Shown piece by piece: positions 4,926 to 25,477 of a stretch of DNA of 25,477 nt. Position 1 is the stretch's first letter. Each line of letters begins with the position of its first letter. The position numbers and the translations under genes were made by a program. Source of the stretch: a virus; the IMG/VR virus record IMGVR_UViG_3300045884_000239, positions 1 through 25,477 of that record. One strand, given 5' to 3'. The notes beneath the pieces were generated by a model. That model had not been told where the DNA came from and did no database searches. It worked only from the letters and a program-made list of their open reading frames with translations.

Positions 4926-4928
4926 CCT

Positions 4929-5243: not shown

Positions 5244-5246
5244 GTC

Positions 5247-5313: not shown

Positions 5314-5332
5314 CTAGCGGGCCATCAGCGGG

Positions 5333-6522: not shown

Positions 6523-6523
6523 C

Positions 6524-8302: not shown

Positions 8303-8333
8303 AGCGTCTCCTCTTCGTTTGGGCGCTGGCCGC

Positions 8334-8358
8334 CTGGCCTGACCACGAGCCAGGCCAG
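8334..8358 (-). other. Intercistronic hairpin
   Basis: Perfect 8-bp inverted repeat CTGGCCTG / CAGGCCAG with a 9-base loop, in the 76-bp gap between the stop at 8379 and the start at 8302. No T tract follows, so it is not a classical terminator. It lies about 20 bases before a GAGGAGACG ribosome binding site, like the hairpins in the 18-20 kb operon. Confidence 0.55.
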
Positions 8359-8378
8359 CGTGTATAGACGCACATCGG

Positions 8379-8747
8379 CTACAGGGGCAGTGTAGCACGG
8401 CCAGCATCGCGCGTGGCTCCCTGGCCCTCCCACAACCAGGCTCTCCCGCACGTGGGGCACAGGAAGGGCAACGTGGTCACCGGGTGCCAGGCATTACAGC
8501 ACGCCAGCTCTGGCCCTTGCTGCACCTCAATCTGCGGGTAGCTGTGTGCCTGACGCGTCCTCCCCAGGAGCTGGGCAGCCTCCTGGATGCGCGCTTCCTT
8601 CGCCTGGCGGTCCTGTTCCTCCTCCCACAGGGCGCGTGGCAGCACCCGCCTCACCCCGCAGCGGCACAGGCAAAAGACGTAGGCGCCGCTGGCCGAGGGC
8701 GCCACGAGGGCGAGCGCGGCCAGGTCGCGGTGGGTGCAGGCGGTCAC
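8379..8747 (-). CDS. Cys-rich zinc-ribbon protein (122 aa)
   Basis: Starts at GTG (8747) overlapping the upstream stop as GTGA, with GGGAGGA six bases before it. Cysteines come in two groups: CLCRCG near residues 27-31 after an early Cys/His, and CPTCG near residue 103, with CC just before. Between them is a basic/acidic helix (EEEQDRQAKEARIQEAAQLL). The 'VFCLCRCGVRR' segment resembles the zinc-binding start of short phage proteins that recognise ribosomal or DNA partners, but I cannot name it. Confidence 0.55.
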   Translation of the reverse strand: MTACTHRDLAALALVAPSASGAYVFCLCRCGVRRVLPRALWEEEQDRQAKEARIQEAAQLLGRTRQAHSYPQIEVQQGPELACCNAWHPVTTLPFLCPTCGRAWLWEGQGATRDAGRATLPL

Positions 8748-9001
8748 GGCGTTTCCTCCCTGCGCCACACGTCGGAAAGCCGCACCGCTTCCCCCGTCTG
8801 CGTATCGAGCGCCAGCGTCGTGTTGCGCTGGTTGAGCACGTAGCGCATGCCGGCGCCCTCAGCCAGCGCCTTAAGCGCCGCTCTCGTATGCGGGCAGCGT
8901 ACGACGACGCAGCGGCGCTGCGCGTCGAAGAGTTCCGCGAACCGAGACCGGTCGCAGAACGGGCAGGGGAAGACGTCTTCGCGCACCCAGAGCGGCGTCA
9001 C
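8744..9001 (-). CDS. Small zinc-ribbon protein (85 aa)
   Basis: GTG start at 9001 with GGGAGG seven bases upstream and GTGA overlap with the preceding gene. CPFC (residues 13-16) and C-x4-CPH (31-38) make a treble-clef-like zinc site at the N-terminus; the C-terminal half has a helix (TRAALKALAEGAG) and two strands. Many phage 'restriction alleviation protein Lar'-like proteins have a similar CPFCG…V.C..C.A layout, but the second knuckle here is C/H and the gene is short, so I offer that only as a possibility. Confidence 0.55.
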   Translation of the reverse strand: MTPLWVREDVFPCPFCDRSRFAELFDAQRRCVVVRCPHTRAALKALAEGAGMRYVLNQRNTTLALDTQTGEAVRLSDVWRREETP

Positions 9002-9288
9002 GGCGCGGCCTCCCTCGAGGCGGCGCGGGCGCGGGCGCGCTGCCGGTTCATCTGGCAGCGCAGGGCCACCTCCTTCGCCGTCGGCGTCGCGTCGCGGTGC
9101 CAGTGTCCCCACTCGCTGAGGGCCGTGAGCGCCTCCTCGGGCGTGTACGGCTCGAGGCGGTGCGCGCTGGTTGGCGTCGGCTGCGGCGCAGCCGCGGACT
9201 CGTGCCACGACATCGGCACGTAGGCGTAGGAGCGCGCAATGAGCAGAACGCGCGGCAACCCCCTGGCTTTAGCCATGGGGAGGTTCAA
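8998..9288 (-). CDS. Hypothetical protein (96 aa)
   Basis: TTG at 9288 is chosen because GGAGGAA lies seven bases upstream and TTGA overlaps the preceding stop. The ATG four codons later has no ribosome binding site of its own. Residues about 48-66 form a helix with conserved Trp (PEEALTALSEWGHW); the C-terminus is Arg/Ala-rich. No domain recognised. Confidence 0.5.
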   Translation of the reverse strand: MNLPMAKARGLPRVLLIARSYAYVPMSWHESAAAPQPTPTSAHRLEPYTPEEALTALSEWGHWHRDATPTAKEVALRCQMNRQRARARAASREAAP

Positions 9289-9584
9289 CGGTGTTCCTCC
9301 AACCAGGCGATGGCTTCGTGTTCAGCAATGACCTGAATCGTGGTCCATGGGAACCCGTCGATGTAGGTCGGGAAGTCCTCTTTCCCGTGTTCGATGATCT
9401 GGAGCATATAGCGGCTATTGACGCGCACCGTTGCCACGTTCAAGACTTCAATGCCGCGCCGGTAGGATTTGACCTTGATCCAGCCATTGAGCAGCACGCG
9501 GGGAACATCGTCTGCGGCCTCATCCGGGTCAAAGGACGCATAGACAACAGGGGGCGTGGGTTCTTTCTTTGCCAAAGCGGTCAT
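9285..9584 (-). CDS. Hypothetical protein (99 aa)
   Basis: ATG at 9584 overlaps the stop of the MT-A70 gene (ATGA), with AAGAAGG just upstream. Mixed alpha/beta composition: two or three strands (LNGWIKVKSYRRGIEVLNV, TVRVNSRYMLQIIEHGK) then a helix (EHEAIAWLEEHR). There are no cysteines, unlike most neighbours, no membrane segment and no known motif. Co-translated with the methylase. Confidence 0.55.
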   Translation of the reverse strand: MTALAKKEPTPPVVYASFDPDEAADDVPRVLLNGWIKVKSYRRGIEVLNVATVRVNSRYMLQIIEHGKEDFPTYIDGFPWTTIQVIAEHEAIAWLEEHR

Positions 9585-10189
9585 CCTTCTTCTTGATGCC
9601 AGAGCGTGTGAGCAATGTCGTTTCCCCAGACGGTCCAACCGTCGATGGCGTCACGCCCAAAGAGTTCGAGATACGGGCCGGGGCTGAACTTCTCAACGAG
9701 TCGTCGGATCTGGTCGGGCTTGCGACTATGCTCGCCCCTCTTCCAGATGCCCCAATTGCGTAGATCGTGCGTTTGGGGCGGGAGATTGCCGCGTACCCCG
9801 AGCAACATGAGTTCGCTGGCATTGCGCCAGTAATTGCCCAGGCCCATGCGCTCCTTGCCCCATCCGTAGTAGCCCTTGTACTCGAATCCCCAGGCGTGCA
9901 GCACGTCAAGACCCTGGGGCAACAGCGTATTGGGTACCCACAGGTGGAGATGCGCCCGCGCCAGGGCGAGCCGTCTCACCGGCAACGCTTTGATGGTGGC
10001 CAGAGACAGCGTGCCATAATGCTTCTCTGCCGCAGCCCGTGTGCTCCTATTGCGAAAGCTCCAGGGCGGATCGGCATAGATGCAGGCATAGCGCTGGCCC
10101 TGGTCCACCATCTGCCACAGCAGATCAACCTGCCCCCGGAGGACGGCAGGTGGCGTGGGCTCATGGAGGGTAAAAAGGTCTAGCTGCAT
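9581..10189 (-). CDS. MT-A70 family N6-adenine DNA methyltransferase
   Basis: A 202-residue protein. The catalytic motif DPPW is at residues 40-43 in IYADPPWSF, followed by an AAAEKHYGTLSL segment, a Trp-rich core (YYGWGKERMGLGNYWRNASE), the late EHSRKPDQIRRLVE motif and LELFGRD, all in the order seen in phage MT-A70 enzymes. These methylate adenine in DNA, commonly protecting phage DNA from restriction or marking it for regulation. Size matches the short phage form. It overlaps the upstream zinc-finger gene by 10 bp and couples to the following gene. Confidence 0.85.
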   Translation of the reverse strand: MQLDLFTLHEPTPPAVLRGQVDLLWQMVDQGQRYACIYADPPWSFRNRSTRAAAEKHYGTLSLATIKALPVRRLALARAHLHLWVPNTLLPQGLDVLHAWGFEYKGYYGWGKERMGLGNYWRNASELMLLGVRGNLPPQTHDLRNWGIWKRGEHSRKPDQIRRLVEKFSPGPYLELFGRDAIDGWTVWGNDIAHTLWHQEEG

Positions 10190-10614
10190 GGCGTCTCAGA
10201 CTCTGCCTGATACGGGAGTTTTTTCGCCGCGCGTTTGGTCGCCATTTTTTTGAGACACTTTGTACATTGTAGTCTCCCAGAGGCAGGGCGATGTTTGCCA
10301 CAGGTAGTACAGCGCCTTCTAATCAAGCGCAGGGTATATCGCTGCTGATCTTTCCTTTGCTGCTGAGCGACATGTCTGACACAATAACGTTTCCCTGGAA
10401 CGACTGGATCGGTCCAGCAATCCAGGCACTTGCCTTCCTCCCGCGCCCGTTGCTTGCCTGCCGTCATCTTATTGAGGCAATCCTGGCAACACGCTTTCCC
10501 CTCTAACGGGGGATTCTGGCAGCGTGCGCACTTCCCCAGGCTCTTATGCGCACGGTAGGAAAGTCGTTTCCTGGCCTTTGGACCATCAAGCAGTTCTTTG
10601 ATATTGCGTCTCAT
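10180..10614 (-). CDS. Protein with three tandem zinc ribbons
   Basis: A 144-residue basic protein; the ATG at 10614 overlaps the stop of the ParB-like gene. Three successive zinc sites are visible: CARC…CQDC (residues about 29-46), CLDC…C-x2-H (about 64-82) and CTTCGKHRPASGRLQCTKC (about 101-119), separated by Lys/Arg-rich helices. The C-terminus is Lys-rich. The arrangement resembles proteins that bind nucleic acid through repeated ribbons; I do not recognise a named family. Placed between a ParB-like protein and a DNA methylase, so a DNA-binding role is plausible. Confidence 0.6.
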   Translation of the reverse strand: MRRNIKELLDGPKARKRLSYRAHKSLGKCARCQNPPLEGKACCQDCLNKMTAGKQRAREEGKCLDCWTDPVVPGKRYCVRHVAQQQRKDQQRYTLRLIRRRCTTCGKHRPASGRLQCTKCLKKMATKRAAKKLPYQAESETPCS

Positions 10615-11507
10615 GCTTTGATATCCGGGAAGGGTTCGGGGTTGTTCTTGTCCGTGCCACGCCACAACAGTTGCCGTTTCTCTATGACTTTGCCTGCTTT
10701 GACGCTATGCCACGCTTTGATAACATATGACGCAATATGTGCCTGCTCAACGTTATTGAGGTGCAAGTTGGCGCTTTGTCGCGTGATCAACAAGTCACGC
10801 AGGTGCCAGGTGGTATGCTCGCGCGCATTGATGTTTTCCCCCTTGGAGAGTTCCGTAAAAAAGGTGTTCGCCAGCGCGCCATCCTGCTGGTGAAAGCGAT
10901 AATACAGGGCGACAGCGAGCCCTTTCGGAATGAGGTGGGCCACCTTCGCCCCCCAGGAACAGGCGGCACGCAGACCGGCATTTTCCGCCAGATAGTCCCG
11001 CATCAGAGGCTCTGGGATCTGCTTGCCCGAGAGCATATCTTTGCGCATGATGCGCCAGTCATAGCGTGCCGCAGCCGAGAGCAAATTGTGATTCGGTTCG
11101 CCATCGGCGGCGAACATATCGCCCCCAGAGCGTTTGGTGCCCGTGTCGATGGTATCAAAGCACGCATCAGGCCAGCCCCAGAGAATGACCACAGGCAGAG
11201 GGAGGCCAGAGGTGATGCACGCCTGCAAACGGTTTTGCCCGTCAATGGGTTCAAGATCCTGATTGAGGATGATGGGTTCACCGTTTTCCCGAAAGTATCC
11301 CCCCTGAAGCGCGCCCACGATTTTCTCCTGGGTGCGTGGTTTCTCAGGCCGGTTGCGTTTCATGCGGGCCAAAAGCCGTGCCGCGGTGGAGGTCTGCAGC
11401 AGCACACGCGCCCCCCCGCGTTCCTGCATCGACCAGCCGTGATCGAGCAACTCTTCAAATTCCGCACTGGTCATCTGCTGCATGACATACTTTTTTGCGA
11501 TAATCAT
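10611..11507 (-). CDS. ParB/Srx-fold phage protein
   Basis: A 298-residue protein with AAGGA before its ATG. Residues about 77-112 carry the ParB-type nuclease/CTPase-fold signature (NGEPIILNQDLEPIDGQNRL, with the DGQNRLQA core at 89-96 and then 'V-V-I-L-W-G'), followed by FDTIDTGTKRSGGD. This is a widespread phage family with an N-terminal ParB-like domain and a helical C-terminal half. The chromosome-segregation motif and HTH of true ParB are not apparent. Members may bind or nick DNA near replication origins, but roles are mostly unproven. It directly follows the replication genes in the operon, after a hairpin in the gap. Confidence 0.7.
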   Translation of the reverse strand: MIIAKKYVMQQMTSAEFEELLDHGWSMQERGGARVLLQTSTAARLLARMKRNRPEKPRTQEKIVGALQGGYFRENGEPIILNQDLEPIDGQNRLQACITSGLPLPVVILWGWPDACFDTIDTGTKRSGGDMFAADGEPNHNLLSAAARYDWRIMRKDMLSGKQIPEPLMRDYLAENAGLRAACSWGAKVAHLIPKGLAVALYYRFHQQDGALANTFFTELSKGENINAREHTTWHLRDLLITRQSANLHLNNVEQAHIASYVIKAWHSVKAGKVIEKRQLLWRGTDKNNPEPFPDIKA

Positions 11508-11531
11508 CGTCGTGTCCTTGCTGTGTGTATG

Positions 11532-11563
11532 GCGGCCAGGAGAGCGTCACCTCTGCTGGCCGC
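11532..11563 (-). other. Intercistronic hairpin
   Basis: GCGGCCAG pairs with CTGGCCGC; inside it AGAG pairs with CTCT after one mismatch, giving about 12 bp in total around a six-base loop. It sits in the 149-bp gap (11508-11656) between the loader and ParB-like genes and has no T tract, so it is more likely an mRNA processing or attenuation element than a full terminator. I see no gene in this gap. Confidence 0.5.
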
Positions 11564-11656
11564 TGTTGATCGTCGTTCCCTGCCCTCGCCTTCGCCTGGT
11601 TTTTCCTCCTTTCCCCCAGGCGCAGCAGAGATCTTCTTTCCGCGCGCAGGCCTGCC

Positions 11657-12139
11657 TCACGGCCTCTCCTCCCCCTCCCGCTCCAGCCACGCCAGCTGCG
11701 CCCTGAGCTGCGCCTTCGTGATCTCGGCGTCGCCGGTCGGCTCGTAGTGCAGCGCGTCCGGCGGGCGGCGAGCGCGTGGCCTGGGGATGGGCGGCGGCGC
11801 CGGCGTCTCGCCGTTCGGCCAGATGGACGCGATCAGGGCCTTCACCTCCTCGGGGGAGACGAGTTCCTCTCGGAGCTGCAACAGCTGCTCTGTGCTGGCG
11901 GGTGCCTCATATTTCTGCTTCTCCATCCAGTCGCGCGCATAGTCTCTGAGGACAACAGGCACCGGAAATTCCCGGTCCCATTTGACGACCTGCGCGCAGG
12001 CATGCCTGAGCGCAGTGATGGGAAGATCTGTGAGTGCCATCCAATAGACCTGGAGCAGCATTTCCGTGATGCTTGTATTAAACACGAGACCCAATGAGGT
12101 AAGCATCGTGCTGAACATCACCTTGTCGTCCGTGGTCAT
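11657..12139 (-). CDS. Probable replicative helicase loader (P-like)
   Basis: A 160-residue protein. ATG at 12139 is preferred (GGAG nine bases upstream) over the in-frame ATG at 12154, which has none. The N-terminal 75 residues are helical (VMFSTMLTSLGLVF, ITEMLLQVYWMALTDLP, ITALRHACAQVV…FPVPVVLRDYA), closely resembling the loader/inhibitor family (G39P-like and related phage proteins) that brings the host DnaB helicase to the phage origin. The C-terminal half is a Pro/Arg-rich linker and a short acidic helix. It lies immediately downstream of the O-like initiator and overlaps its 3' end by 62 bases, the classic O-P order. Confidence 0.7.
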   Translation of the reverse strand: MTTDDKVMFSTMLTSLGLVFNTSITEMLLQVYWMALTDLPITALRHACAQVVKWDREFPVPVVLRDYARDWMEKQKYEAPASTEQLLQLREELVSPEEVKALIASIWPNGETPAPPPIPRPRARRPPDALHYEPTGDAEITKAQLRAQLAWLEREGEERP

Positions 12140-13061
12140 CGTGATCGTCTCCATGGATGAAGTTATGCACATGCCGCATCGTACGAAACTCTCGGTCACT
12201 CAACCGGTCTCGTGCTGCTTGCTGCTGTGCGAACTCGATCGGCACGAGGTCGTCTTCATAGCGTGCCTGGTTGAGGTAGGTCGTCGGCAGCGGAATTTTG
12301 GTTTTGTCCCTCCCGACCCAGAGGGTGATGAGGAGCCGCTCGATCTTGGCCGCGATTTCGTCGGCGCGCTCTTCGAGACCACGTGTCTGCCAGATGGCGA
12401 AGGCCTCGACCTTGCCTTCCTTGCGACCGATGGGATACGACTCCCAGAAGCGGGTAAAGCCGTCTGTGTAATTGGTGGCCGGGGTCTTGCTCGCCTTCGT
12501 GCGTACGCGAGATGTCCCCTCGCGCGCGCGTTCACGCTCGAACGAAGTGAGAGCGTGGTTTTCTGTCTTGTGTCCTTCAGTGGGAGTCCTTAAATCCAAC
12601 CCTTCCAGTCTTCCTGGTAGACTAGGTAGGTTCTCTGGTGTACCAGGGTAGTTCTCCTGGAAAACCGGGGGTAGTCTTTCTGGTGAACTAGGTAGTCTTT
12701 CTGGTGAACTAGGTAGTCTTTCTGGTGAACTAGGTAGGGGTGTACTGGTGTCTGTCTCAGGTTCGAGGATGGTATAGACGTTCGAGCCGCGTTCCCCATT
12801 GGACGCGTGTCGTGCTTCGATGCGAATGAGGCCGGCGTCTTCGAGCACTTTGAGATATTTGGCGACAGCGCCCCTGGAGATATGCAAGGTCTTCTGGAAG
12901 TACGTATAGCTGGGAAAGCACGCGCCATGTTTGTCGGCGCACCTCGCGATCACGGCGTAGAGCGCCAGGCCGATAGGGCCAATGACCTGGGCATACGTAT
13001 CAATGATATCATCCGTCATCCAAAACCATGGGCGTCTGCGTCCGTCCCGAATAATATCCAC
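12078..13061 (-). CDS. Replication initiator (lambda O-like: N-terminal winged helix, C-terminal replisome-organiser domain)
   Basis: A 327-residue protein starting at GTG 13061 (GGGGAG nine bases upstream). Residues about 25-100 are a winged helix-turn-helix (IGLALYAVIARCADKHGACF, then ISRGAVAKYLKVLEDAGLI). Residues 111-153 are tandem 7-residue repeats, three of them exact (SSPERLP). Residues about 202-270 (FTRFWESYPIGRKEGKVEA…W…PLPTTYLNQARYEDD) match the C-terminal domain common to phage replication proteins. In lambda the origin iterons lie within gene O between these same two domains, and repeats are present here at that place. It is followed by the loader-like gene. The C-terminus beyond residue 300 is His/Asp-rich. 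Confidence 0.8.
   Translation of the reverse strand: MDIIRDGRRRPWFWMTDDIIDTYAQVIGPIGLALYAVIARCADKHGACFPSYTYFQKTLHISRGAVAKYLKVLEDAGLIRIEARHASNGERGSNVYTILEPETDTSTPLPSSPERLPSSPERLPSSPERLPPVFQENYPGTPENLPSLPGRLEGLDLRTPTEGHKTENHALTSFERERAREGTSRVRTKASKTPATNYTDGFTRFWESYPIGRKEGKVEAFAIWQTRGLEERADEIAAKIERLLITLWVGRDKTKIPLPTTYLNQARYEDDLVPIEFAQQQAARDRLSDREFRTMRHVHNFIHGDDHDDHGRQGDVQHDAYLIGSRV
12608..12736. repeat. Iteron-like repeats inside the initiator gene, candidate replication origin
   Basis: Three perfect 21-bp direct repeats run from 12671 to 12733 (unit begins GTAGTCTTTCTGG and ends GAACTAG). Three diverged units lie to the left, at about 12608-12670, for six in all; one of these is 24 rather than 21 bp. 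The period is two DNA turns. Codon-level drift of the outer units with conserved bases 'CTGGTG/A' suggests selection on DNA as well as protein. By analogy with lambda oriO these would bind the initiator's own winged helix. No AT-rich unwinding stretch is obvious beside them. Confidence 0.6.
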
Positions 13062-13104
13062 CGTGCATCTCCCCTGCGTTGTGCGCCTTGAGCGTCTCTC
13101 ACCC

Positions 13105-13299
13105 CTACTGCCGCGCCTCGCCGTTCGTGCGCGCGTGCTCGTCGCCGCCCTCGCGGCGTTGCCACTCCTGCCACTGCTCCGCGTCGGCCCGCCCCCGCCG
13201 GTAGCCTGCCTCGACGCCGGCGTAAAACCCGATGAGCGCTGCCGCCAGGCCGCCCAGCATCACCAGCACGAGCAGGCCAGCGGTTTCAATCACGGTCAT
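13105..13299 (-). CDS. Small single-pass membrane protein (64 aa)
   Basis: GGAGGAGG precedes the ATG. Residues 5-28 (ETAGLLVLVMLGGLAAALIGFY) form one membrane helix, followed by a Gly-Tyr-Arg-Arg boundary and a charged cytoplasmic-type tail rich in Gln, Trp, Arg and Glu. Its first bases overlap the end of the XRE gene upstream. Small membrane proteins in this position may be superinfection-exclusion or holin-like factors, but nothing specific is seen. Confidence 0.6.
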   Translation of the reverse strand: MTVIETAGLLVLVMLGGLAAALIGFYAGVEAGYRRGRADAEQWQEWQRREGGDEHARTNGEARQ

Positions 13300-13579
13300 T
13301 GGCCTCCTCCTGCCGCCTCGCCGGCACTCTCTCCGGCAGCAGTGCCTGCGGCGTCACGTGCAGCGCGTCCGCTGCTGCGCAGCAGCAGACTCGCGCCAGG
13401 CCGCACAGCGCCGACACCGCGGGGTCCCGCACCTGCCCGGCTTCGAGCCACTCCAGCCAGCGCGCGTCGACGCCCGCCCGGGACGCGAGGTCTTCGAGCG
13501 CGAGCCGGCGCACGGTGCGCAGGTGCGCCACACGGCGGCCGATGTAGGGGCCGAGGTAGAGCGGGGCGGTGGTCCTCAA
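13286..13579 (-). CDS. XRE-type helix-turn-helix protein (97 aa)
   Basis: TTG start at 13579 forms TTGA with the preceding stop and has GGGAGG nine bases upstream. Residues about 11-75 follow the Cro/C1 layout (IGRRVAHLRTVRRLALEDLA, SRAGVDARWLEWLEAGQV), though the central helix carries unusual CCCAAA residues. It is a likely DNA-binding regulator, probably of genes in this operon, since it is embedded in it rather than next to a divergent promoter. Cys-rich region and non-ATG start lower confidence slightly. Confidence 0.6.
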   Translation of the reverse strand: MRTTAPLYLGPYIGRRVAHLRTVRRLALEDLASRAGVDARWLEWLEAGQVRDPAVSALCGLARVCCCAAADALHVTPQALLPERVPARRQEEANDRD

Positions 13580-14007
13580 ATCGTCTGCCCTCCCCCCGTG
13601 AAGTCCGGCGTCACCGCGCCATCCAGCGGACACCACAGGTGCAGGCAGGCGTGGTGGATGGAGACATGCTTGCTCCTGGGCGGGTGGATCTGGTACGCCG
13701 TGGTATCCGTCCCGCAAAAGTGCTCTTTGACCTCGCACATCTCCCTCCACGTTGGGAGGCGTCCGCCACGATGCGAGACCGACACATGCAACCAGCGTTT
13801 GCGCTCACGAATGCTGGCAGAGAGCAGGACCAGCAGCCCCGTTTGTGAGCGGTAGGCGCGTCCGTACTCGCGCTCGCGGGACCAGTGGCGCGCGTCGATC
13901 TCCTGCCAACCGGTGGGCAGCGTCTCGGGCGCGATCGTCTGCAGGTGCAGCGGCGTGCCACCGTCGCCCAGGCGGTAGGTCTGGCCCTGATACGTGATGC
14001 TGTCCAA
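13576..14007 (-). CDS. Conserved phage protein, DUF7694-like
   Basis: A 143-residue protein from TTG 14007 with GGAGG eight bases upstream. The central part WLHVSVSHRGGRLPTWREM, then VKEHFCGTD…IHPP…HHACLHLWCPLDG and a Pro-Asp-Phe near the end, is the signature of a common phage protein of unknown function (I recall it as DUF7694). The N-terminal half has short strands. It contains no nuclease or binding motif. It lies between two zinc-containing small proteins in a chain of overlapping genes. Confidence 0.65.
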   Translation of the reverse strand: MDSITYQGQTYRLGDGGTPLHLQTIAPETLPTGWQEIDARHWSREREYGRAYRSQTGLLVLLSASIRERKRWLHVSVSHRGGRLPTWREMCEVKEHFCGTDTTAYQIHPPRSKHVSIHHACLHLWCPLDGAVTPDFTGGGQTI

Positions 14008-14010
14008 CGC

Positions 14011-14280
14011 TCAGCCCTCCCTCGTCTTGTCCCAGACGATGTGCGTCTGCTGCATGCCCGGCACGCGTGGCACCGGGTCGACCGACCACTGCTCGTAGGT
14101 GACGAGCCTCCCCTGCCCGCCCAGGTGCACCAGGTGAATCACTTCCGCCAGCGGGCAGCGCTGACACGCGCGCACGCACAGCTCCGGCGTGCCCTCCGCC
14201 GTGGGCAGGTGCAGCATCAGTTCCACGCGGCGCCAGTCGTGCGCATCCTCGGCGCACCACGTGGGTTGGCGGCGTTTCAC
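14011..14280 (-). CDS. Hypothetical protein (89 aa)
   Basis: GTG start at 14280 forms GTGA with the stop of the upstream gene; no separate ribosome binding site, so it depends on coupled translation. One Cys near the N-terminus (WCAEDAHDW) and a C-x3-C-x2-C cluster at about 35-42 (CVRACQRCPL) could bind metal. The C-terminal part has a Trp-rich segment. No family recognised. Confidence 0.5.
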   Translation of the reverse strand: MKRRQPTWCAEDAHDWRRVELMLHLPTAEGTPELCVRACQRCPLAEVIHLVHLGGQGRLVTYEQWSVDPVPRVPGMQQTHIVWDKTREG

Positions 14281-14492
14281 GGCGCGCACCGCGTGCACAC
14301 CGGCGGGGTGAGTTGCGCCCAGGCGCACCCATCCTCGCACCCCACGTTGTCCGTACAGCCACACACGGTGCACTGTCTTGCGCCGTTGCGGGCGACGTCG
14401 TAGGCGCGCTCGTCGACGAGGAGCGCCCAGTCGAGATCGAGGACCAGGTCCTCACCGTCGTCGTGGTCATCCGTGGTGCTGAGGAGGTACAT
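14277..14492 (-). CDS. Small Cys-rich zinc protein (71 aa)
   Basis: AAGGAGA precedes the ATG. The first half is acidic (DDHDDGEDLVLDLDW); the second contains CTVCGCTDNVGCEDGCAW…CTRC. This C-x2-CG-C…C-x3-CAW…C-x2-C pattern is shared by a family of short phage zinc proteins of unknown function. It stands at the head of a coupled group (14492 to 13105). Confidence 0.65.
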   Translation of the reverse strand: MYLLSTTDDHDDGEDLVLDLDWALLVDERAYDVARNGARQCTVCGCTDNVGCEDGCAWAQLTPPVCTRCAP

Positions 14493-14504
14493 GGGGAATC
14501 TCCT

Positions 14505-14834
14505 TTAGGCGGTGTGCGTGCCTTCGACCTGGCGTGCTTCCCGCTCTCTGGTGCGACGGTCGAGCGCTTCTTCAGCCATGTGCAACGCCATGATGGCTTC
14601 GGCATTCTCGGCGCACTGAAAACGGCCCTCGCTGGCCGTCTGGTAAAACTCGATACGCTGTCGTACGGCCTGGATCAGATCTTCGACAAAGGCCCCGTTG
14701 GCTTCGCGGCGCTCCTCACCGCGCCCCAGTGGACCGTGTTGCCACGATATGGAGAATCCCTTGCCGGTGCTGACACCACCATTCGGATTGCCGTGCTCGT
14801 CCACCCAATGTTCGTCAAAGAAACCTTGTTTCAT
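14505..14834 (-). CDS. Acb2/Tad1 hairpin-domain-like protein (candidate cyclic-nucleotide sponge)
   Basis: A 109-residue protein with GGAGGA seven bases before ATG 14834. It has the layout I recall for phage proteins with an Acb2/Tad1 hairpin domain: a strand segment GFSISWQHGPLG (26-37), an 'N-G-A-x-V-E-D-L-I' helix start (46-54), a helix with RIEFYQ, then EGRFQCAENAEAI (69-81) opening the second helix, and the C-terminal signature RTREREARQVEGTHT (94-108). Acb2 and Tad1 sequester signalling nucleotides of CBASS and Thoeris defence. Whether this member binds any nucleotide is unknown; many relatives are uncharacterised. It lies in the early leftward operon, appropriate for counter-defence. 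Confidence 0.6.
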   Translation of the reverse strand: MKQGFFDEHWVDEHGNPNGGVSTGKGFSISWQHGPLGRGEERREANGAFVEDLIQAVRQRIEFYQTASEGRFQCAENAEAIMALHMAEEALDRRTREREARQVEGTHTA

Positions 14835-14849
14835 CAAAGTCCTCCGAGA

Positions 14850-15182
14850 AACCTCCCCGTTCAGGGGGAGGAGGAAAGGAGGTTGACCCACCGGGGCAAC
14901 ACATCTCCTGCGGCTTTGCCGCATCCACCTTGCATAGGTTACAAAATACGAGGTACAATTTCCCCAGAGCTAAAGGCACCTGCTTGCAGGCACAAACGGT
15001 TGGGCTCTGGTGTAATGCCGCCATACTTTTCTTTCAGTTAAAAGGCATGCGAGCAATCGGGCTGCAGTCAATCAGCCCAACGGAACTGGGTACCGGTTCC
15101 CGTAGTAGCGCATCCGGCACGGGCTACCCTCGTGCGCGGTGTAAGGCAGCTACAAGCTCCGCCCTTCAGGGCGGGGTCGTTG
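14850..15182 (+). mobile_element. Non-coding remnant resembling an IS200/IS605 element (omega-RNA-like right end)
   Basis: A 331-bp gap between coding regions (14835-15165). Near its right side GGTTCCCGTAGTAGC is followed by a complementary GCAGCTACAAG and then hairpin CTCCGCCC-TTCA-GGGCGGGG (15157-15176) and TCGTTGATG. This is the order I know from the 3' ends of TnpB-associated omega-RNAs. Near the left side are a hairpin with a similar loop (CCTCCCC-GTTCA-GGGGAGG, 14852-14871), GGTTGAC, and a small perfect hairpin TGCGGC-TTT-GCCGCA. No TnpB zinc-finger or RuvC motif can be read in any frame, and no TnpA. The element would be non-autonomous or decayed. It appears to have cut into the end of the gene at 15444. 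Confidence 0.45.
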
Positions 15183-15444
15183 ATGTCCCCTCCCTGGTGT
15201 TGTTGATGGCCAGAAACATGTTCCACCACGTCGTCGTCTCGGACTCTATGCGGGCCTGTCGTGCCGCCTGGTAGCGTTGCTCCATCGGTCGGACGCCGAT
15301 GGAGCGGTGCATCTGTTGCACGATCACGCGGGCTTCGTCGGTGAGCTGCTGGTGCGGGTTGGCGATGAGTGCCGTACAGACCTCGCACCACCGCGTTTCC
15401 ACAGGGACCGACCAGTTGCACACCTCACAGTGCTGCCACTGCAT
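15166..15444 (-). CDS. Zinc-ribbon protein, C-terminus probably replaced by the inserted element
   Basis: A 92-residue protein with GGGAGA five bases before its ATG and a good promoter 30 bp further up. CEVCNW (residues 6-11) and CEVC (about 20-23) form a compact zinc ribbon, followed by long helices (QQLTDEARVIVQQMHRSI, EQRYQAARQARIES). The stop codon lies within the CCGCCC-TTCA-GGGCGG hairpin of the IS200/IS605-like end, so the last several residues (TSTTPP) are probably not native. Function unknown. Confidence 0.6.
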   Translation of the reverse strand: MQWQHCEVCNWSVPVETRWCEVCTALIANPHQQLTDEARVIVQQMHRSIGVRPMEQRYQAARQARIESETTTWWNMFLAINNTREGTSTTPP

Positions 15445-15473
15445 GGGCGTCTCCCAACTTCTGATAACTATGA

Positions 15474-15479
15474 ATTATA
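15474..15479 (-). promoter_or_regulatory. Candidate -10 box of a leftward promoter
   Basis: Perfect TATAAT on the minus strand, in an AT-rich island (15460-15500) unlike the flanking GC-rich DNA, 30 bp upstream of the start at 15444. The -35 position 17 bp upstream (TGGGTA-like) is poor, so an activator or an extended -10 may be needed. It would drive the operon running to 5010. Confidence 0.5.
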
Positions 15480-15495
15480 TTAACTTGTTCTATAC

Positions 15496-15747
15496 CTACC
15501 CATAGCTCACGCCTCTCAGAGGTCGTCCTGCACCCCGCCCCACCGCTCCCGCCTCCCCGCCGGCCGGCGCGTACGTCGCCAGCCCGCCGGTGCCGGCGAG
15601 CCGCCATGGTCCAGCCCTCCAGGGGTCCGTCGTACCACACCTGCCGGGGCCAGCGGCACGCGCTTCAGACGGGCCTGGGCGTGTATATGCCTCCAGGGCG
15701 CACGATCGTGCACCACCGAGGGTGATTGGTCGTTGGACGCCGTGCAC
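15496..15747 (-). CDS. Doubtful small Gly/Ala/Arg-rich protein
   Basis: The stretch 15480-15763 holds several competing open frames, as expected in very GC-rich DNA. This one is preferred only because its GTG lies 12 bases after an AGGAGG that overlaps the previous stop, and because GTGGLATYAPAGGEAG looks protein-like. Composition is biased (Gly, Ala, Arg) and two other frames (such as 15516-15716) are equally open. The AGGAGG lies in an imperfect palindrome CGCGAAAGCCGAGCCTCC / GGAGCCTTCGCG. It may be a decayed gene. Confidence 0.25.
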   Translation of the reverse strand: MHGVQRPITLGGARSCALEAYTRPGPSEARAAGPGRCGTTDPWRAGPWRLAGTGGLATYAPAGGEAGAVGRGAGRPLRGVSYG

Positions 15748-15763
15748 GCGAAAGCCGAGCCTC

Positions 15764-16048
15764 CTAGGAGCCTTCGCGCGTGTCCTCCTCCCCCCGCCTG
15801 GCCGCCCGCGCCGCCTCAACCTGCTCCCACAGCGCCGGCGCGTGCGTCTGCAGATAGGCTTCCTCGTCGTAGCCCAGCGCCGCCATCCGCCCGGTGGCGA
15901 GCCAGATGAGCGCCAGCCCGCCGCACGCCAGACACACGAATGGCGCGTAGGCCAGCCGCTGCACGCCGTCGCCCCACGTCGCGAGCGCCAGCGACTGCGG
16001 CACCACGCCGCAGTGGGGGCAGGGGGCACGCAGTGGTGGGGTGGTCAT
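15764..16048 (-). CDS. Zinc-ribbon protein (94 aa)
   Basis: ATG at 16048 overlaps the upstream stop (ATGA). CPHC (10-13) and CLAC (about 39-42) make a zinc ribbon with hydrophobic strands between (LAYAPFVCLACGGLALIWLA). The second half is an acidic helix (EEAYLQTHAPALWEQVEAARAARR). It resembles other small phage zinc ribbons; no name can be given. Confidence 0.6.
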   Translation of the reverse strand: MTTPPLRAPCPHCGVVPQSLALATWGDGVQRLAYAPFVCLACGGLALIWLATGRMAALGYDEEAYLQTHAPALWEQVEAARAARRGEEDTREGS

Positions 16049-16233
16049 GCGTCGCACCCCTCGTCCGGCTCCGGCCACCGGTTCGTCGCGGCGTAGAACC
16101 GCAGCCGCGCGACCAGTTCGTCGGTCGTGTAGCAGCGCCCACCTTTGTGGTGCGCCTCGGCGGAAAAGCCGCACGCCGTGCACACGCCCTCGCCGCAGGC
16201 GGCGAGGCGGGGGTTGGGGGTGTCGATGGGCAT
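16045..16233 (-). CDS. Small Cys/His protein (62 aa)
   Basis: AGGAGG precedes ATG 16233, 14 bp after the stop of the XRE gene. CGEGVCTACGF, then AHHKGGRCY, give a C/C/C…H…C set that could hold zinc; then a helix (TTDELVARLRFYAATNRW). It is the second gene of the leftward operon and overlaps the next by four bases. The 'C-x2-CG…H…GRCY' layout is a recurrent small phage motif of unknown role. Confidence 0.6.
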   Translation of the reverse strand: MPIDTPNPRLAACGEGVCTACGFSAEAHHKGGRCYTTDELVARLRFYAATNRWPEPDEGCDA

Positions 16234-16247
16234 GGGGGCCTCCTGGG

Positions 16248-16490
16248 CTAGGGGGTTGGGACTGGGACACCCGTACCAGGCTGGTCCTCGAAGAGATCGC
16301 CGGTCGGTATGTGCAGCACGGCAGCGATAGCCCACAATGTGCCCAGTGGAACATTGTCGCCCTTCTCGTATTCACATATACGGGCAGTCGATTTGCCCAC
16401 AAGCGCCGCCAGAGCGGCCTGCGTCAGACGCCGCTCCTTGCGGTATTTCTCAATGGTGGTTTTGCGTATCTCCGTCATCGGTGTCTTCAT
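16248..16490 (-). CDS. XRE-type helix-turn-helix regulator (80 aa, Cro-like position)
   Basis: ATG 16490 with GGAGG four bases upstream. Residues 9-66 are a full XRE domain (IEKYRKERRLTQAALAALVG, KSTARICEYEKGDNVPLGTL, AAVLHIPTGDLF). It is the first gene of the long leftward operon and diverges from the XRE gene at 16624 across a 133-bp operator region. By analogy with lambda-type switches one of the pair would be the lysogenic repressor and the other Cro-like; the short one heading the early operon fits Cro, which is inference. Confidence 0.8.
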   Translation of the reverse strand: MKTPMTEIRKTTIEKYRKERRLTQAALAALVGKSTARICEYEKGDNVPLGTLWAIAAVLHIPTGDLFEDQPGTGVPVPTP

Positions 16491-16623
16491 GCATCCTCCA
16501 GTTCGATATCTCAAGCATAGAATAGCAGAAAGAGTCGAAATGTCGAAATTATTTTTCGTTTATTTCGAATATAAGGTGGGTATACTTTCGGAAATGTCGA
16601 ATCTATAGCATAGAGGAGGTGCT
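16491..16623. promoter_or_regulatory. Divergent promoter/operator region of the first immunity-like switch
   Basis: Two 15-bp sites TTCG-N7-CGAA lie at 16555-16569 and 16587-16601, 32 bp (about three turns) apart. A leftward promoter is visible at 16542-16547 (TTCGAC) and 16519-16524 (TATTCT) with a 17-bp spacer, overlapping half-sites TCGAAATGTCGAA. A rightward -10 (TATACT, 16581-16586) abuts the second site. The block is strikingly AT-rich. Binding would repress both directions. Confidence 0.65.
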
Positions 16624-17040
16624 ATGAAAGCGGGCGTGCAGCGTGGGTCGGGTGTAGGAAAGATCTTTGGGAGCAATGCCAGAGGGCACCGGAAGGCACG
16701 ACAGCTCAAACAGGAGACCGTGGGCCACGATATCGGCTGTGCGAAATCGACCATTTCCGAAATCGAAAGCGGTACGCATAGCCCAAATCTCGACAAGGCC
16801 GTAGCCCTGGCCCGGTATTTTGGCGTGCCGCTCGATGCGATGATCAGTGAGGACAAAGTGTTGGCGTCGCCATGGCTTGCCAAAGTGCGCCATCTTGCCC
16901 TCACACTACCATCGGAACATCAAGTCACGGTCGCGGAAATGTTGGAAGCCCTCGCAGCCGAGTTGCGCCTGTTGTCTACCACGAACTGCGCCTTCTGCCA
17001 CTTTGCCGAGATATTGCCGGCGTTGAGTGCCATGAACTAG
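16624..17040 (+). CDS. XRE-family repressor (138 aa)
   Basis: GAGGAGG five bases before the ATG. Residues 17-75 are an XRE domain (NARGHRKARQLKQETVG, CAKSTISEIESGTHSPNLDK, ARYFGVPLDAMI). A C-terminal helical part (SEHQVTVAEMLEALAAELRLL) ends in a C-x2-C pair (CAFCHFAEIL). No LexA-like autocleavage Ser-Lys domain is present, so induction by RecA self-cleavage is not expected. It diverges from the XRE gene at 16490, precedes the integrase, and shares its operator motif with the integrase promoter, which makes it the best candidate for the prophage repressor. Confidence 0.8.
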   Translation: MKAGVQRGSGVGKIFGSNARGHRKARQLKQETVGHDIGCAKSTISEIESGTHSPNLDKAVALARYFGVPLDAMISEDKVLASPWLAKVRHLALTLPSEHQVTVAEMLEALAAELRLLSTTNCAFCHFAEILPALSAMN

Positions 17041-17197: not shown

Positions 17198-18103
17198 ATG
17201 GCGACAGATGCTCATGAATCGGTCTATACGGTTGGAGATTTGCTCACGGTCTACATGCAGGAATATCTGCCCATAAAGACCACCCACACCCAGCAGACAC
17301 AGGGACGATGCTTACGATGGCTGAGGAAAGAGTTGGGCGCATTGCCGCTTGCTTCCCTCACGCCGCCATTCCTCAGAGCGTGGAAAGCGCAGCTCCTGGG
17401 GCGGGTCAGCCCAGGAACCGTACGCTTTTATATGTACACACTCTCTGCCGCACTGACTGCAGCGGTCGATGACTACGAATGGTTAGCACGCCATCCCATG
17501 CGCCAGGTGAAACTGCCGCCGGAGTCACCAGGGCGCGATCGCCCGCTGACCCAAGAGGAACTCCCACGGCTCCTTGCGGCGTGCCAGCAGAGCCGCAATC
17601 CTGCCCTGTATCCCCTCGTACTCCTGGCGCTCACGACCGGACGCCGCAAGAACGAACTCCGCTGTCTCAGGCGAGAGCAGCTCGATATTGGCCAGGGGGT
17701 GATTCGCTTACGGACCTCAAAAAATAAACAACCGCAGGTCGTCGCGGTTGTCGGTCTGGCCTTCGAGGTGTTGCAGACGTGGTATGTCGGACTGGGTGGA
17801 GAGAGCCTCTGGATATTCCCTGGTCGCAGTGGCACGGGGCCTTGCACCATTGATGACGCCTGGCGCCAGGCCAGAGACCGAGCTGGTCTTCACGATGTGC
17901 GCTTTCATGACCTCAGACACACCTGTGGCACGTACCTCGCCATGAGTGGTGCGAGTCTCGCAGATATCAAGGAGGTACTCGGGCATAAACACATCAAGGT
18001 CACTATGAAATATATACACCTGACGCTGCCGCATACGCGCGGCACGGTTGAGCGCATGGCGCGCCAGTTCCTCCGCCCACCCGAGCCTCCGCCAGAGGTG
18101 TAG
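17198..18103 (+). CDS. int: Tyrosine recombinase / phage integrase
   Basis: A 301-residue protein. The N-terminal SAM-like core-binding domain spans about residues 8-98; the catalytic domain spans about 115-290. Catalytic residues are all visible: Arg150 in TTGRRKNEL, Lys175 in TSKNK, His237 and Arg240 in HDLRHT, His263 in LGHKHIKVTMKY and nucleophile Tyr272. It mediates site-specific integration and excision of the phage. The length is short for a phage integrase: no N-terminal arm-binding domain of lambda type is apparent, so it may recognise simple sites. It is transcribed away from the repressor, and repeats TGTAGATG overlap its stop codon, where an attachment site could lie. Confidence 0.93.
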   Translation: MATDAHESVYTVGDLLTVYMQEYLPIKTTHTQQTQGRCLRWLRKELGALPLASLTPPFLRAWKAQLLGRVSPGTVRFYMYTLSAALTAAVDDYEWLARHPMRQVKLPPESPGRDRPLTQEELPRLLAACQQSRNPALYPLVLLALTTGRRKNELRCLRREQLDIGQGVIRLRTSKNKQPQVVAVVGLAFEVLQTWYVGLGGESLWIFPGRSGTGPCTIDDAWRQARDRAGLHDVRFHDLRHTCGTYLAMSGASLADIKEVLGHKHIKVTMKYIHLTLPHTRGTVERMARQFLRPPEPPPEV

Positions 18104-21917: not shown

Positions 21918-22331
21918 ATGCTGCTGTCACGCCGCGAGACGATCCGGTTCTATACCAGTATCGGCATCCAGATTGGCCTGGCGCTGTGTGTGCCGCTCGT
22001 GCTGGTGTGGGGCATGCTCCTCCTCACCGGCCTGGTCGCCGACATGCGCCAACAGATTCGCCAGGACATCGAACGCGACCGTCGCAGCCAGCAGGAACAC
22101 GATACGTGTATCGTCAATGCGTCGATCAGGCGACTGGCCGGCGTCAAGAGCTCCCTATGCCCGACGACCTCAACCCCCTGCTGGCGCGCCTCACAGCGTT
22201 CGGCCAGGTGCTGGAGCGTGCACTGCACACCCGCGACAACGGCGACCCTGGCGCTTGACACAGCGCCCAGAACGCTGCACAGTTGTCCTCTCCATCTGGG
22301 ACCTGGGGAGGGAGCGGGGCGGGACGCATGA
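21918..22331 (+). CDS. Membrane-anchored protein, C-terminal half uncertain
   Basis: AGGAG seven bases before the ATG. Residues 13-41 contain one long membrane helix (IGIQIGLALCVPLVLVWGML), followed by a charged coiled-coil stretch (MRQQIRQDIERDRRSQQEHD). After about residue 78 the sequence turns Cys/Ser/Thr/Trp-rich and looks like out-of-frame translation. In another frame, 22157-22258 encodes a tidy 33-residue peptide (MPDDLNPLLARLTAFGQVLE). This could be two overlapping genes or a frameshift near 22150. The stop overlaps the small terminase start (ATGA), which argues that the whole frame may be translated. Confidence 0.5.
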   Translation: MLLSRRETIRFYTSIGIQIGLALCVPLVLVWGMLLLTGLVADMRQQIRQDIERDRRSQQEHDTCIVNASIRRLAGVKSSLCPTTSTPCWRASQRSARCWSVHCTPATTATLALDTAPRTLHSCPLHLGPGEGAGRDA

Positions 22332-22861
22332 CGGCCTATGAGCAGCTCAGCGAACGTCAGCGGAAATTTGTCGATGGCTATCTGCAGCACGGCAACGCCA
22401 CTGAAGCCTGTCGCCAGGCGGGATACACCTGGCCGGAAAAACAGAGCCATCAGCAACTAGGAAAAACTAGGATCCAGGCCGCCCTTGCCGAACGCCGCGC
22501 AGCGCTCATCCGCACGTACGACGTGACCCCCGAGCGTGTCATTGCCGAGCTGGCGCTGATCGCCTTCAGCGACATGTACGATTACGTCACCTGGGGACCC
22601 GAGGGTGTCACGCTGCGTGACTCGCAGACGCTCGACGCCCGCGCCAGGCGGGTGGTCGGCGAAGTCTCCCAGACCATCACGCTGGCCGGGGGCACGGTCA
22701 AGTTCAAGCTGCATAGCAAGGTCGACGCCCTCGACAAATTGGCCAGGCACCTCGACCTCTACGGCGACAAAGCCGCCATGGACGCGTTCGGCCAGGGCCT
22801 GATGGATCTGCTCACCCGTACCCGTACGGCACACACCAATGGCCACCAGCCTGTCTCCTAG
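22328..22861 (+). CDS. terS: Terminase small subunit
   Basis: A 177-residue protein of the Terminase_2 type. Residues 6-50 (LSERQRKFVDGYLQHGNATEAC, then AGYTWPEKQSHQQLGKTRIQ) are the DNA-binding helix-turn-helix domain that recognises the packaging site. A conserved middle (YDVTPERVIAELALIAFSDM), a beta segment, and KVDALDKLARHLDLYG form the oligomerisation part. It directs the large subunit to phage DNA. The ATG overlaps the previous stop; GGGAGGGAG lies upstream. The large subunit follows with a 23-base overlap. Confidence 0.92.
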   Translation: MTAYEQLSERQRKFVDGYLQHGNATEACRQAGYTWPEKQSHQQLGKTRIQAALAERRAALIRTYDVTPERVIAELALIAFSDMYDYVTWGPEGVTLRDSQTLDARARRVVGEVSQTITLAGGTVKFKLHSKVDALDKLARHLDLYGDKAAMDAFGQGLMDLLTRTRTAHTNGHQPVS

Positions 22862-24383
22862 CGCCCTCCACGCCTCCGTCGAGGCGTATCTTGAGCTGCG
22901 TCCGTACTGGCGTCACGATCCTGTCCTCTACGCCCACGATCGTCTCGGCCTCACCCCCACGCACCAGCAGCGCCGCATCCTGGAGGCGATTGCCCCCGCG
23001 GGCGCCAAGGTCACGGTACGCAGTGGTCACAACATCGGCAAATCCTCCGCCGCTGCGGCCATCCTGTGGTGGATGCTGGAGACGCACGACCTGGCGCGTA
23101 TCCCGTGCACAGCGCCCACCTCCGCCCAGCTCCGCCAGGTGCTGTGGGGCGAACTGGGGAAATGGTTGAGGCAGGCGGACACCCTGTCCAGAGTCCGTGG
23201 CGATCCCAAACGCCTGTGGCTCTCCACCCTGTTCCACGTGACCCAGGACCGGGTGTACGACCGGGGCGCACCCCTGGAGTGGTTCGCCGTGGCGCGGACG
23301 GCGCGCAAAGAAGCCCCCGAGGCGCTGCAGGGGTTTCACGCCACTGCCATCACCGTGGCGGAGGACGGGACCACCCTCGCCTCCGAGGACGCCGCGCCGC
23401 TGCTGTTCCTGGTCGACGAGGCCTCGGCTGTGGATGATCAAATATTCGAGGTCGCGGAGGGCGCCATCGCGGCCAGGGGCTCGCGCTTCCTCATGCTCGG
23501 CAACCCGACCCGCACGCAGGGCTATTTCGCGCTCTCGCACCGCTCCCGGCGGGCGCAGTACACAGCGCTGCACTTCCGCTCGCAGGATTCGCCGCTGTGC
23601 CCCGAGGGCTACCGCGCGAGCCTGGTGGCCAAATTCGGCGAGGGCTCGAACGTGGTGCGCGTGCGTGCCGACGGCGAGTTCCCCGAGGCCGACGACGACA
23701 CCCTCATTCCCCTCGCCCACACCGAGGCGGCGCTCTCCCGTGAACGCCCTGCCCTCGTGACGGGACCGAGACGCCTCGGCGTCGACGTGGCCCGCCTGGG
23801 CACGAACCGCACCGCCCTGGTGCTGCGCCAGGGCCGGCTCGTCGAGCACGCCCGCATCTTCAGCCGGCAGGACACGATGGTGACGGTGGGCTGTGTGCTG
23901 ACCGCGTTGGTGGAGTGGGAGGCTGACGAGGTGGCTATCGACACCATTGGCCTGGGCGCTGGCGTCTACGACCGCCTGGCTGAACTGACGCCGCAGTCCG
24001 TGGAGCTGGCCACGGACGTGCGGGCCTACATGCTGGCGCGCTCCTGGGGCACCCTGCCGCTCGTCGCCGTGAACGTGGCGCTGCCGGCACCGCCCAGGAG
24101 GAAGGGCGAGCCGCAGGGGCGGACATTGCGCGATCACATCTGGTTAGAGATGGCGGCCTGGCTCAGGGACGAGGCACCCGTCTTTGCGTGCGCCGCGCCG
24201 CTCAGGGACGACCTGGCGGGGGAGCTGGCGACACCGACGAGCCATCTCGATTCCTCCGGCCGCATCGTGGTGGAGTCGAAAGACGACCTGCTGGCCAGGC
24301 ATGTGCAGTCCCCTGACCTGGCTGACGCCACCGGGGCGACCTTTTGTCCACCGCCCGCAACCGTCCGCGCTGGCGTGTGGTAA
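22839..24383 (+). CDS. terL: Terminase large subunit
   Basis: A 514-residue packaging motor. Walker A-type motif RSGHNIGKSS at 61-70, Walker B LLFLVDEAS with Asp193-Glu194, coupling motif GNPT at 221-224. The nuclease domain has Asp316 (LGVDVARLGTNRTALVL), Asp368 (VAIDTIGLGAGVYDRL) and an Asp pair at 493-496 (SPDLADAT), the expected RNase H-like acidic triad. ATPase and nuclease are both intact, so it should translocate and cut DNA into the prohead through the portal. No separate ribosome binding site is seen; the start is inside terS. Confidence 0.95.
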   Translation: MATSLSPSALHASVEAYLELRPYWRHDPVLYAHDRLGLTPTHQQRRILEAIAPAGAKVTVRSGHNIGKSSAAAAILWWMLETHDLARIPCTAPTSAQLRQVLWGELGKWLRQADTLSRVRGDPKRLWLSTLFHVTQDRVYDRGAPLEWFAVARTARKEAPEALQGFHATAITVAEDGTTLASEDAAPLLFLVDEASAVDDQIFEVAEGAIAARGSRFLMLGNPTRTQGYFALSHRSRRAQYTALHFRSQDSPLCPEGYRASLVAKFGEGSNVVRVRADGEFPEADDDTLIPLAHTEAALSRERPALVTGPRRLGVDVARLGTNRTALVLRQGRLVEHARIFSRQDTMVTVGCVLTALVEWEADEVAIDTIGLGAGVYDRLAELTPQSVELATDVRAYMLARSWGTLPLVAVNVALPAPPRRKGEPQGRTLRDHIWLEMAAWLRDEAPVFACAAPLRDDLAGELATPTSHLDSSGRIVVESKDDLLARHVQSPDLADATGATFCPPPATVRAGVW

Positions 24384-24390
24384 TTGGTCC

Positions 24391-24419
24391 TTGTCTCCCT
24401 TCAGAAGTTACTTTACTAT
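24391..24419 (+). promoter_or_regulatory. Candidate promoter after terL
   Basis: TTGTCT (24391-24396), exactly 17 bp, TACTAT (24414-24419); four of six bases match consensus in each box. It lies eight bases after the terL stop, inside a 176-bp gap that holds no gene, and 64 bp before an intrinsic terminator. Confidence 0.45.
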
Positions 24420-24425
24420 TACCCG

Positions 24426-24519
24426 CAAACCTTCGGCGCCACCGGTGTCGCGCACCACCGGGTTGGCGCCACCCTTCAAGAGGCATGAGGCTGTACAGCC
24501 CCTCGTGCTTCTTTTTTTT
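24426..24519 (+). ncRNA. Possible short structured RNA or leader between terL and portal
   Basis: Bounded by the promoter-like boxes at 24391-24419 and the terminator ending at 24519, predicted length about 95 bases. It contains a strong stem: GGCGCCA (24435-24441) pairs with TGGCGCC (24464-24470), and GGTG inside it pairs with CACC at 24453-24456. The terminator stem follows directly. It could be a free small RNA, an attenuated leader for the portal gene, or a packaging-associated element. No coding frame with a start and ribosome binding site is present. Confidence 0.4.
24483..24519 (+). terminator. Rho-independent terminator
   Basis: Stem GCATGAGG / CCTCGTGC (eight pairs, one G-U) around a ten-base loop, followed at once by TTCTTTTTTTT. 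It is the clearest intrinsic terminator in the window, yet it stands between two late genes that are usually co-transcribed. Confidence 0.75.
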
Positions 24520-24559
24520 GTCCGGCGTCTGGCGCCGAGGGTGCCAGGAGGGCACGACG

Positions 24560-25477
24560 TTGAGCGAGCACAACGGCAACCTGATGACGCTGCAATCTGG
24601 TCTGGATGCCCTGTCTCAACTGGGCATGACGTTTCAGGGCCAGCGCTCGCTGTACACCGCCCTGGGGTGGAAAAAGGATCTCGGGCCTGACGACTTCCTC
24701 AATAAATACCTGCGCCAGGACCTGGCGGCACGCCTGGTCGATATTTTCCCCGAATACACCTGGCGCCAGCCACCCCGCGTGACCGACGATGCCGAGGCGG
24801 ACCCGCTGACCCCGTTCGAGGCGGCGTATGAGGCCCTGGCCACCCGGCTGCGGCTCACGCACATCTGGACGACGCTGGACCGGCTGGCCGGTCTGGGGCA
24901 GTATGCCGTGCTGCTCCTGGGGGTAGCGGATGGACGGCCCCTGCAGACCCCCATTACCAGGGCCAGGGACGTTGCCTATGTGTCGGCCTATGGCCAGCGC
25001 TCTGCCGAGATTACGCGCCTGGAAGAGGACCCGCAGCAGCCGGGCTTTGGCAGGCCGCTCACGTACACCATCGATCTGACGCGGCGCACCGAGGGAGGGC
25101 TCACCACGCCCAGGGGGCGGGCGCCAGCCACCATGATCCTCCCGGTGCATGCCTCACGCGTGGTGCATTTTGCCGAGATGCCCCTGGATGGCGCGGTCTA
25201 TGGTCTGCCCCGCCTGGAGCGGGTGTTTAATCGTCTCGACGATCTCGAAAAGCTCTTAGGCGGGTCAGCGGAAATGTTCTGGCAGGGCGGGCGAGGCAAC
25301 ATTGTCGCGGCGCTGAGAGACGGGGCCGCGATCCCGGACGATGCGACCAGGGAGGAATTGCGGCGCCAAATTGACGAGTGGACCCACGGCCTCAGGCAGT
25401 GGCTGCGCGTTTCCGGCATCGACGTGACGCGCCTGCCGTCGTCCCTCGCCTCCCCCAAAGACGCCATTGAGGCCCAG
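24560..25477 (+). CDS. Portal protein (N-terminal part, open at right edge)
   Basis: The frame begins at TTG 24560 with AGGAGG seven bases upstream and stays open to the last base (306 codons). Residues about 41-72 (LGPDDFLNKYLRQDLAARLV, then FPEYTWRQPP) and the segment DRLAGLGQYAVLLLG match the DUF1073-type portal family. Later RPLTYTIDL, HASRVVHF and GLPRLERVFNRLDDLEKLLG are the usual stem/wing and crown-side helices of portals. Twelve copies would form the head vertex ring through which terminase pumps DNA. Gene order terS-terL-portal supports it. In some members of this family the C-terminus carries an Acb1-type domain; that region is outside the window. Confidence 0.85.
   Translation, partial: MSEHNGNLMTLQSGLDALSQLGMTFQGQRSLYTALGWKKDLGPDDFLNKYLRQDLAARLVDIFPEYTWRQPPRVTDDAEADPLTPFEAAYEALATRLRLTHIWTTLDRLAGLGQYAVLLLGVADGRPLQTPITRARDVAYVSAYGQRSAEITRLEEDPQQPGFGRPLTYTIDLTRRTEGGLTTPRGRAPATMILPVHASRVVHFAEMPLDGAVYGLPRLERVFNRLDDLEKLLGGSAEMFWQGGRGNIVAALRDGAAIPDDATREELRRQIDEWTHGLRQWLRVSGIDVTRLPSSLASPKDAIEAQ

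Follow-up and report, generated by a model that had tools for sequence, protein, structure and literature searches.

The gap between terL and the portal gene

The window, i.e., the whole stretch of DNA analysed here (25,477 nucleotides), is a 25.5-kb virus record of a tailed phage. The phage is temperate: it carries an integrase gene (17198–18103), a CI-like repressor gene (16624–17037), and a Cro-like gene (16251–16514). A 31.9-kb virus contig, G002 (L057, L058), is 99.4% identical to window bp 1–16887 and overlaps the portal end of the window at bp 25351–25477, from which we infer that the two probably belong to a single phage genome of about 40 kb.

The genes for the terminase subunits lie near the right end of the window and are separated from the portal gene by 176 bp. 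The preliminary description placed a promoter-like site, a GC-rich hairpin, an intrinsic terminator, and a TTG-started portal gene here, and all four are present. The layout is as follows, where L006 is a second phage with a related unit.

about 22328–22858: terS
22839–24383, plus strand: terL (PHROG 2), the upstream neighbour of the gap, with its TAA stop codon at 24381–24383
24384–24559: the terL–portal gap
24391–24419, plus strand: promoter-like site TTGTCT-17-TACTAT (TTGTCT at 24391–24396, TACTAT at 24414–24419); the L006 counterpart is TTGACG-18-TATGGT
24425–24438, plus strand: 14-nt stretch GCAAACCTTCGGCG, identical in the window and L006, spanning the predicted RNA start
24427–24519, plus strand: predicted small RNA of about 93 nt, its start placed by the spacing from the -10 element
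24427–24434, plus strand: unpaired 5′ tail of the RNA, AAACCUUC, inside the invariant 14-nt stretch
24430–24440, plus strand: 5′ arm CCUUCGGCGCC, the pairing partner of the post-terminator arm
24435–24470, plus strand: hairpin 1, GC-rich, carrying a small 3′-side bulge
24478–24519, plus strand: intrinsic terminator, with a stem at 24478–24513 followed by T8 at 24512–24519
24531–24541, plus strand: post-terminator arm GGCGCCGAGGG, forming 11 pairs with the 5′ arm; the L006 equivalent is GACGCCGAAGG
24546–24551, plus strand: AGGAGG, the Shine-Dalgarno sequence of the portal gene
24560–25477, plus strand: portal gene (Pfam PF06381 Phage_portal_3, PHROG 146), starting with TTG and running off the window

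The promoter-like site is weak taken alone, as it has 8 of the 12 consensus bases; it thus falls below the 9-of-12 threshold of the consensus scan and was not listed by it. The same scan found no promoter between the terminator and the portal gene, so that the portal gene would be reached by transcripts reading through the terminator, either from the promoter-like site or from upstream. For the predicted 93-nt transcript the folding energy is -44 kcal/mol (z = -5.4), which none of 200 dinucleotide shuffles matches; the whole 176-nt gap folds at z = -3.8. No reading frame inside the 93-nt RNA is common to the window and L006. In both phages a start codon followed by AGG lies within the terminator hairpin (window 24485; L006 5693) and its frame is open into the portal gene, which may be a matter of chance.

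Relatives of the phage

Relatives were taken to be six further contigs with a TerL 78–82% identical to that of the window, plus the near-identical contig L002, whose gap is 176 nt long and identical to the window's. In L006, a 37-kb contig (G001), the gap holds the whole unit in diverged form ahead of a different portal gene. The order is TTGACG-18-TATGGT, then GCAAACCTTCGGCG, a hairpin, a terminator that has T7, and lastly GACGCCGAAGG, and the promoter-like site occupies the same position with respect to the RNA as it does in the window. In L003, L004, L005, L007, and L008, terL directly adjoins a PHROG 113-type portal gene with no gap (the portal family was tested for L005). The unit is also absent from the rest of the contigs of these relatives, whose TerL is 78–82% identical. 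Conservation of the structure, whose absence the preliminary description had counted towards a refutation, is borne out in one diverged relative, L006, and is absent from the others.

Because terL and the portal gene are directly adjacent in L003, L004, L005, L007, and L008, the unit is extra DNA. The L006 portal is a PHROG 113 protein fused to a MuF-type domain, and that of the window is a member of PHROG 146. It follows that the unit is not bound to one portal type, and also that a plain insertion into one and the same gene pair is not demonstrable for the window. By TerL identity the window is the outgroup; the L006 TerL is closest to those of L003–L005 and L007 (88–89%), so that L006 is nested among phages without the unit. 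Presence of the unit is patchy and independent of portal type.

The distribution bears on a proposal of the preliminary description that the gap encodes a structural RNA linked to packaging. Such an RNA would act with terminase and portal in the manner of the φ29 packaging RNA, likewise a phage RNA near packaging genes, and the unit does sit between the genes for two motor parts in both carriers. The proposal is not supported: the portals of the two carriers differ, no Rfam family matches the unit, the φ29 RNA included, and, since phages with a TerL 78–82% identical manage without the RNA, a packaging role is highly improbable.

In the contigs G003, G004, and G005, which are without the RNA unit, the MuF gene is followed by a terminator that is very strong (-28 to -34 kcal/mol). 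It stands behind a reading frame of 67–70 aa (L005 7979–8182, L008 9101–9304, L003 4616–4828), the first codons of which contain a near-consensus promoter sequence, TTGACA-17-TAGACT, identical in all three. The differences by codon position among copies of this frame (3/5/19, 8/7/14, and 7/7/13) suggest that it is coding. Its assignment to a known family was rejected, as neither Pfam nor PHROGs gave a match. This second unit is missing from the window contigs and from G001. From the distribution of the two units, there is one clear promoter–terminator unit among the head genes of every phage in the group, and it is either the RNA or the small ORF.

Conservation of the RNA structure

The first 46 nt, i.e., the invariant 14-nt stretch and hairpin 1, align without gaps between the window and L006. 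In the hairpin 1 helix formed by positions 16–21 and 30–35, five of the six inner pairs are changed on both sides and are Watson–Crick in both phages; sliding one partner by 1–3 columns destroys the pairing. For the two hairpins together, both sides differ in 7 pairs and pairing holds in 96% of cells, with slides of 1–3 columns doing far worse, in an alignment that was fitted to the structure and hence leans towards it. The L006 RNA folds at z = -6.7 compared with -5.4 for the window RNA, both far better than shuffles.

An independent test of the structure was a covariance-model search. A model built from the window copy and its identical twin alone found L006 at 47.6 bits, with E-values from 1e-12 to 3e-11; calibration was short and these values are rough. 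The same alignment stripped of its structure gave L006 14.1 bits and missed it under default filters; thus, about 33 bits come from base pairing. As only two distinct copies are known, the covariation is that of one sequence pair. Retention of the shape of the RNA but not of its sequence in a second phage makes it very probable that the predicted RNA is a real, previously undescribed phage RNA.

Searches for further copies

Patterns for the invariant parts, which as exact patterns miss diverged copies, found only the two distinct copies already known in 2.9 million viral contigs; a similar pattern scan of 257 billion bases of genome sequence, with the same blind spot, gave six matches, all at chance level. 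No TerL relative was found among the genome contigs. A blastn search with the gap found nothing in annotated phages, and its plasmid matches (E 0.5) are at chance level. Rfam gave no match at the gathering score, and chance-level matches only at a relaxed threshold. Model R3, run over 34 related virus records, matched L002 alone.

Several candidates were rejected, as follows. Matches of model R1 in G003 (L059 10532) and G004 (L062 1510) are antisense in tail genes and have no T run; a one-mismatch match in G003 lies inside an HNH gene; and the further pattern matches in viral contigs are coding or do not have the structure of the unit. Separately, L164 has two GC-rich hairpins and a terminator at bp 2472–2557, about 550 nt upstream of the terS and terL of another phage. 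Its model match is weak, with an E-value of 1.2e-4, and it has neither the shared 5′ tail nor the bulge, and it was left unproven as a further copy.

The arm beyond the terminator

The most unusual and least explained part of the unit is the post-terminator arm. RNA positions 4–14 (CCUUCGGCGCC; CCUUCGGCGUC in L006) are complementary at 11 of 11 positions to an arm 11–22 nt past the T run, which is GGCGCCGAGGG in the window and GACGCCGAAGG in L006. When the tail was shuffled at constant composition, 11/11 pairing was reached in 0.6% of shuffles for the window (0.006) and 0.05% for L006 (0.0005). At RNA position 13 a C-G pair in the window is U-A in L006, i.e., both sides have changed in step. 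The arm–arm pairing is possible only in RNA that extends past the terminator, where it competes with the lower part of hairpin 1. No alternative helix that would disrupt the terminator was seen.

The arm enters into several readings of the unit. One is plain insulation, in which the terminator alone matters, with the promoter and hairpin 1 being incidental or vestigial. Terminators are indeed common at module borders, and the window promoter has a low score. An insulator would not be expected to show compensatory changes in hairpin 1, an invariant 5′ stretch, or conservation of the post-terminator arm, however, and we hold this reading to be improbable.

A second reading is a gate on late genes of the λ pR′–tR′ kind. 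Here a late promoter would make a short RNA as a by-product, and an antiterminator, or an alternative fold using the post-terminator arm, would let polymerase pass on to the portal and tail genes. The layout is alike: promoter, short transcript, terminator, then late genes. The λ arrangement also offers a precedent for a terminated RNA being regulatory, as the small RNA StxS derives from the terminated pR′–tR′ late-promoter transcript (PMC7873438). A strong terminator within late genes, the lack of a promoter found between it and the portal gene, and an arm found in read-through RNA only yet conserved with a compensating C-G to U-A change at position 13 all fit a gate. On the other side, the unit lies between terL and the portal gene, so that terS and terL are upstream of the supposed gate; relatives have no gate at that place; and no helix breaking the terminator was seen. 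The preliminary description had also called for a search for an antiterminator gene. None was recognizable, the Q family included, among the 28 window proteins scanned, in a scan that can miss divergent antiterminators. A gate is possible, if rather unlikely.

Read-through might instead be driven by the RNA itself, for which HK022 putRNA is the precedent (PMC9378689). The nascent two-hairpin RNA would bind RNA polymerase and make it terminator-resistant with no protein needed. The put RNAs are about 70–90 nt long with two stem-loops beside the promoter (PMC9378689), and the unit likewise has two stem-loops right behind its promoter-like site and is of a length similar to putL. In the unit, however, the second stem-loop is itself a terminator with U8, and the unit is in a late region, whereas put sites are found in early operons. 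Moreover, the HK022 genome, putL and putR included, has no significant match to model R3 (best E 0.26). We give this reading little credence.

A proposed small-RNA cassette

The explanation that we prefer, and regard as moderately probable, is that the unit is an autonomous small-RNA cassette with a moron-like layout that a temperate phage carries in its late operon. Morons are insertions between phage genes that bring a promoter and a terminator with them (PMC4378225). Similarly, the unit is an extra one with a promoter-like site and a terminator, set among the structural genes of a temperate phage and carried by some relatives but not by others. In both carriers the predicted promoter and terminator flank a unit between two phage genes, and the unit is absent from close relatives in which the flanking genes are adjacent (L003, L004, L005, L007, and L008, the window portal being of a different family). 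The difference lies in the content: a moron is usually a protein gene, and here a structured RNA, with no shared frame in its 93 nt, is combined with a complementary arm beyond the terminator.

We suggest that a σ70-type promoter starts the RNA at about bp 24427, and that the RNA consists of the unpaired 5′ tail AAACCUUC, hairpin 1, and the terminator hairpin, ending after U8 with a length of about 93 nt. The terminator would shield the portal and later head genes, which are silent in the prophage, from cassette transcription; these genes would therefore be expressed only by polymerase reading through during lytic growth. In the read-through RNA, the arm at 24531–24541 would pair with the 5′ arm, closing a structure around the terminator. 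On the cassette reading, the terminated RNA is the product and read-through is a late-phase event. The terminated RNA is most likely a regulatory small RNA, presumably acting in trans; promoter activity, termination, and the manner of read-through are likewise predictions made from the sequence. Read-through might use an antiterminator protein, leakiness of the terminator, or the alternative fold. Some points sit uneasily with the cassette: a simple small RNA does not need the conserved post-terminator arm, the promoter of the window fits the consensus only weakly, the portals of the two carriers differ, and there are two distinct copies only.

The preliminary description had offered a small regulatory RNA or an antitermination-controlled leader. 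As a class, this proposal is supported by the compensatory changes, the promoter-like site, the terminator, and the lack of a promoter found before the portal gene; the present analysis does not separate the two options within it. A more speculative combination, which we judge to be quite unlikely, is that the late operon contains an RNA switch that works without a protein. The terminated and read-through RNAs would fold differently, using hairpin 1 or the post-terminator arm, respectively. In the lysogen the leader would thus yield a small RNA acting in trans, and in lytic growth the same leader would give the head-gene mRNA a stable, sealed 5′ end.

The locus is of interest because a covarying RNA with a promoter-like site and a terminator is found where head genes are normally adjacent, and because the arm exists only in read-through RNA. 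Accessory cassettes of prophages are usually sought as protein genes. If confirmed, the unit would be a compact example of a non-coding moron, would offer a simple way of testing how late-gene expression deals with an internal terminator, and would add a new phage RNA family.

Repeats elsewhere in the window

A 58-nt repeat is present in three copies on the minus strand (5252–5309, 5894–5951, and 6531–6588) and was not found in the related contigs G001 and G003–G005. In two of the three copies it encodes a gene C-terminus (CA[LF]TRNG[TA]VLAQWLCE..RR), and the third copy lies behind a stop codon; the repeat is followed by a Shine-Dalgarno-like AGAGGAG. The replication initiation gene (12078–13061) contains 21-bp tandem repeats (12604–12737) that encode repeated SSPERLP units. 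Within the large ORF at 1997–4699, a segment is duplicated at 3566–3768 and 4139–4341, with about 70% identity between the copies.
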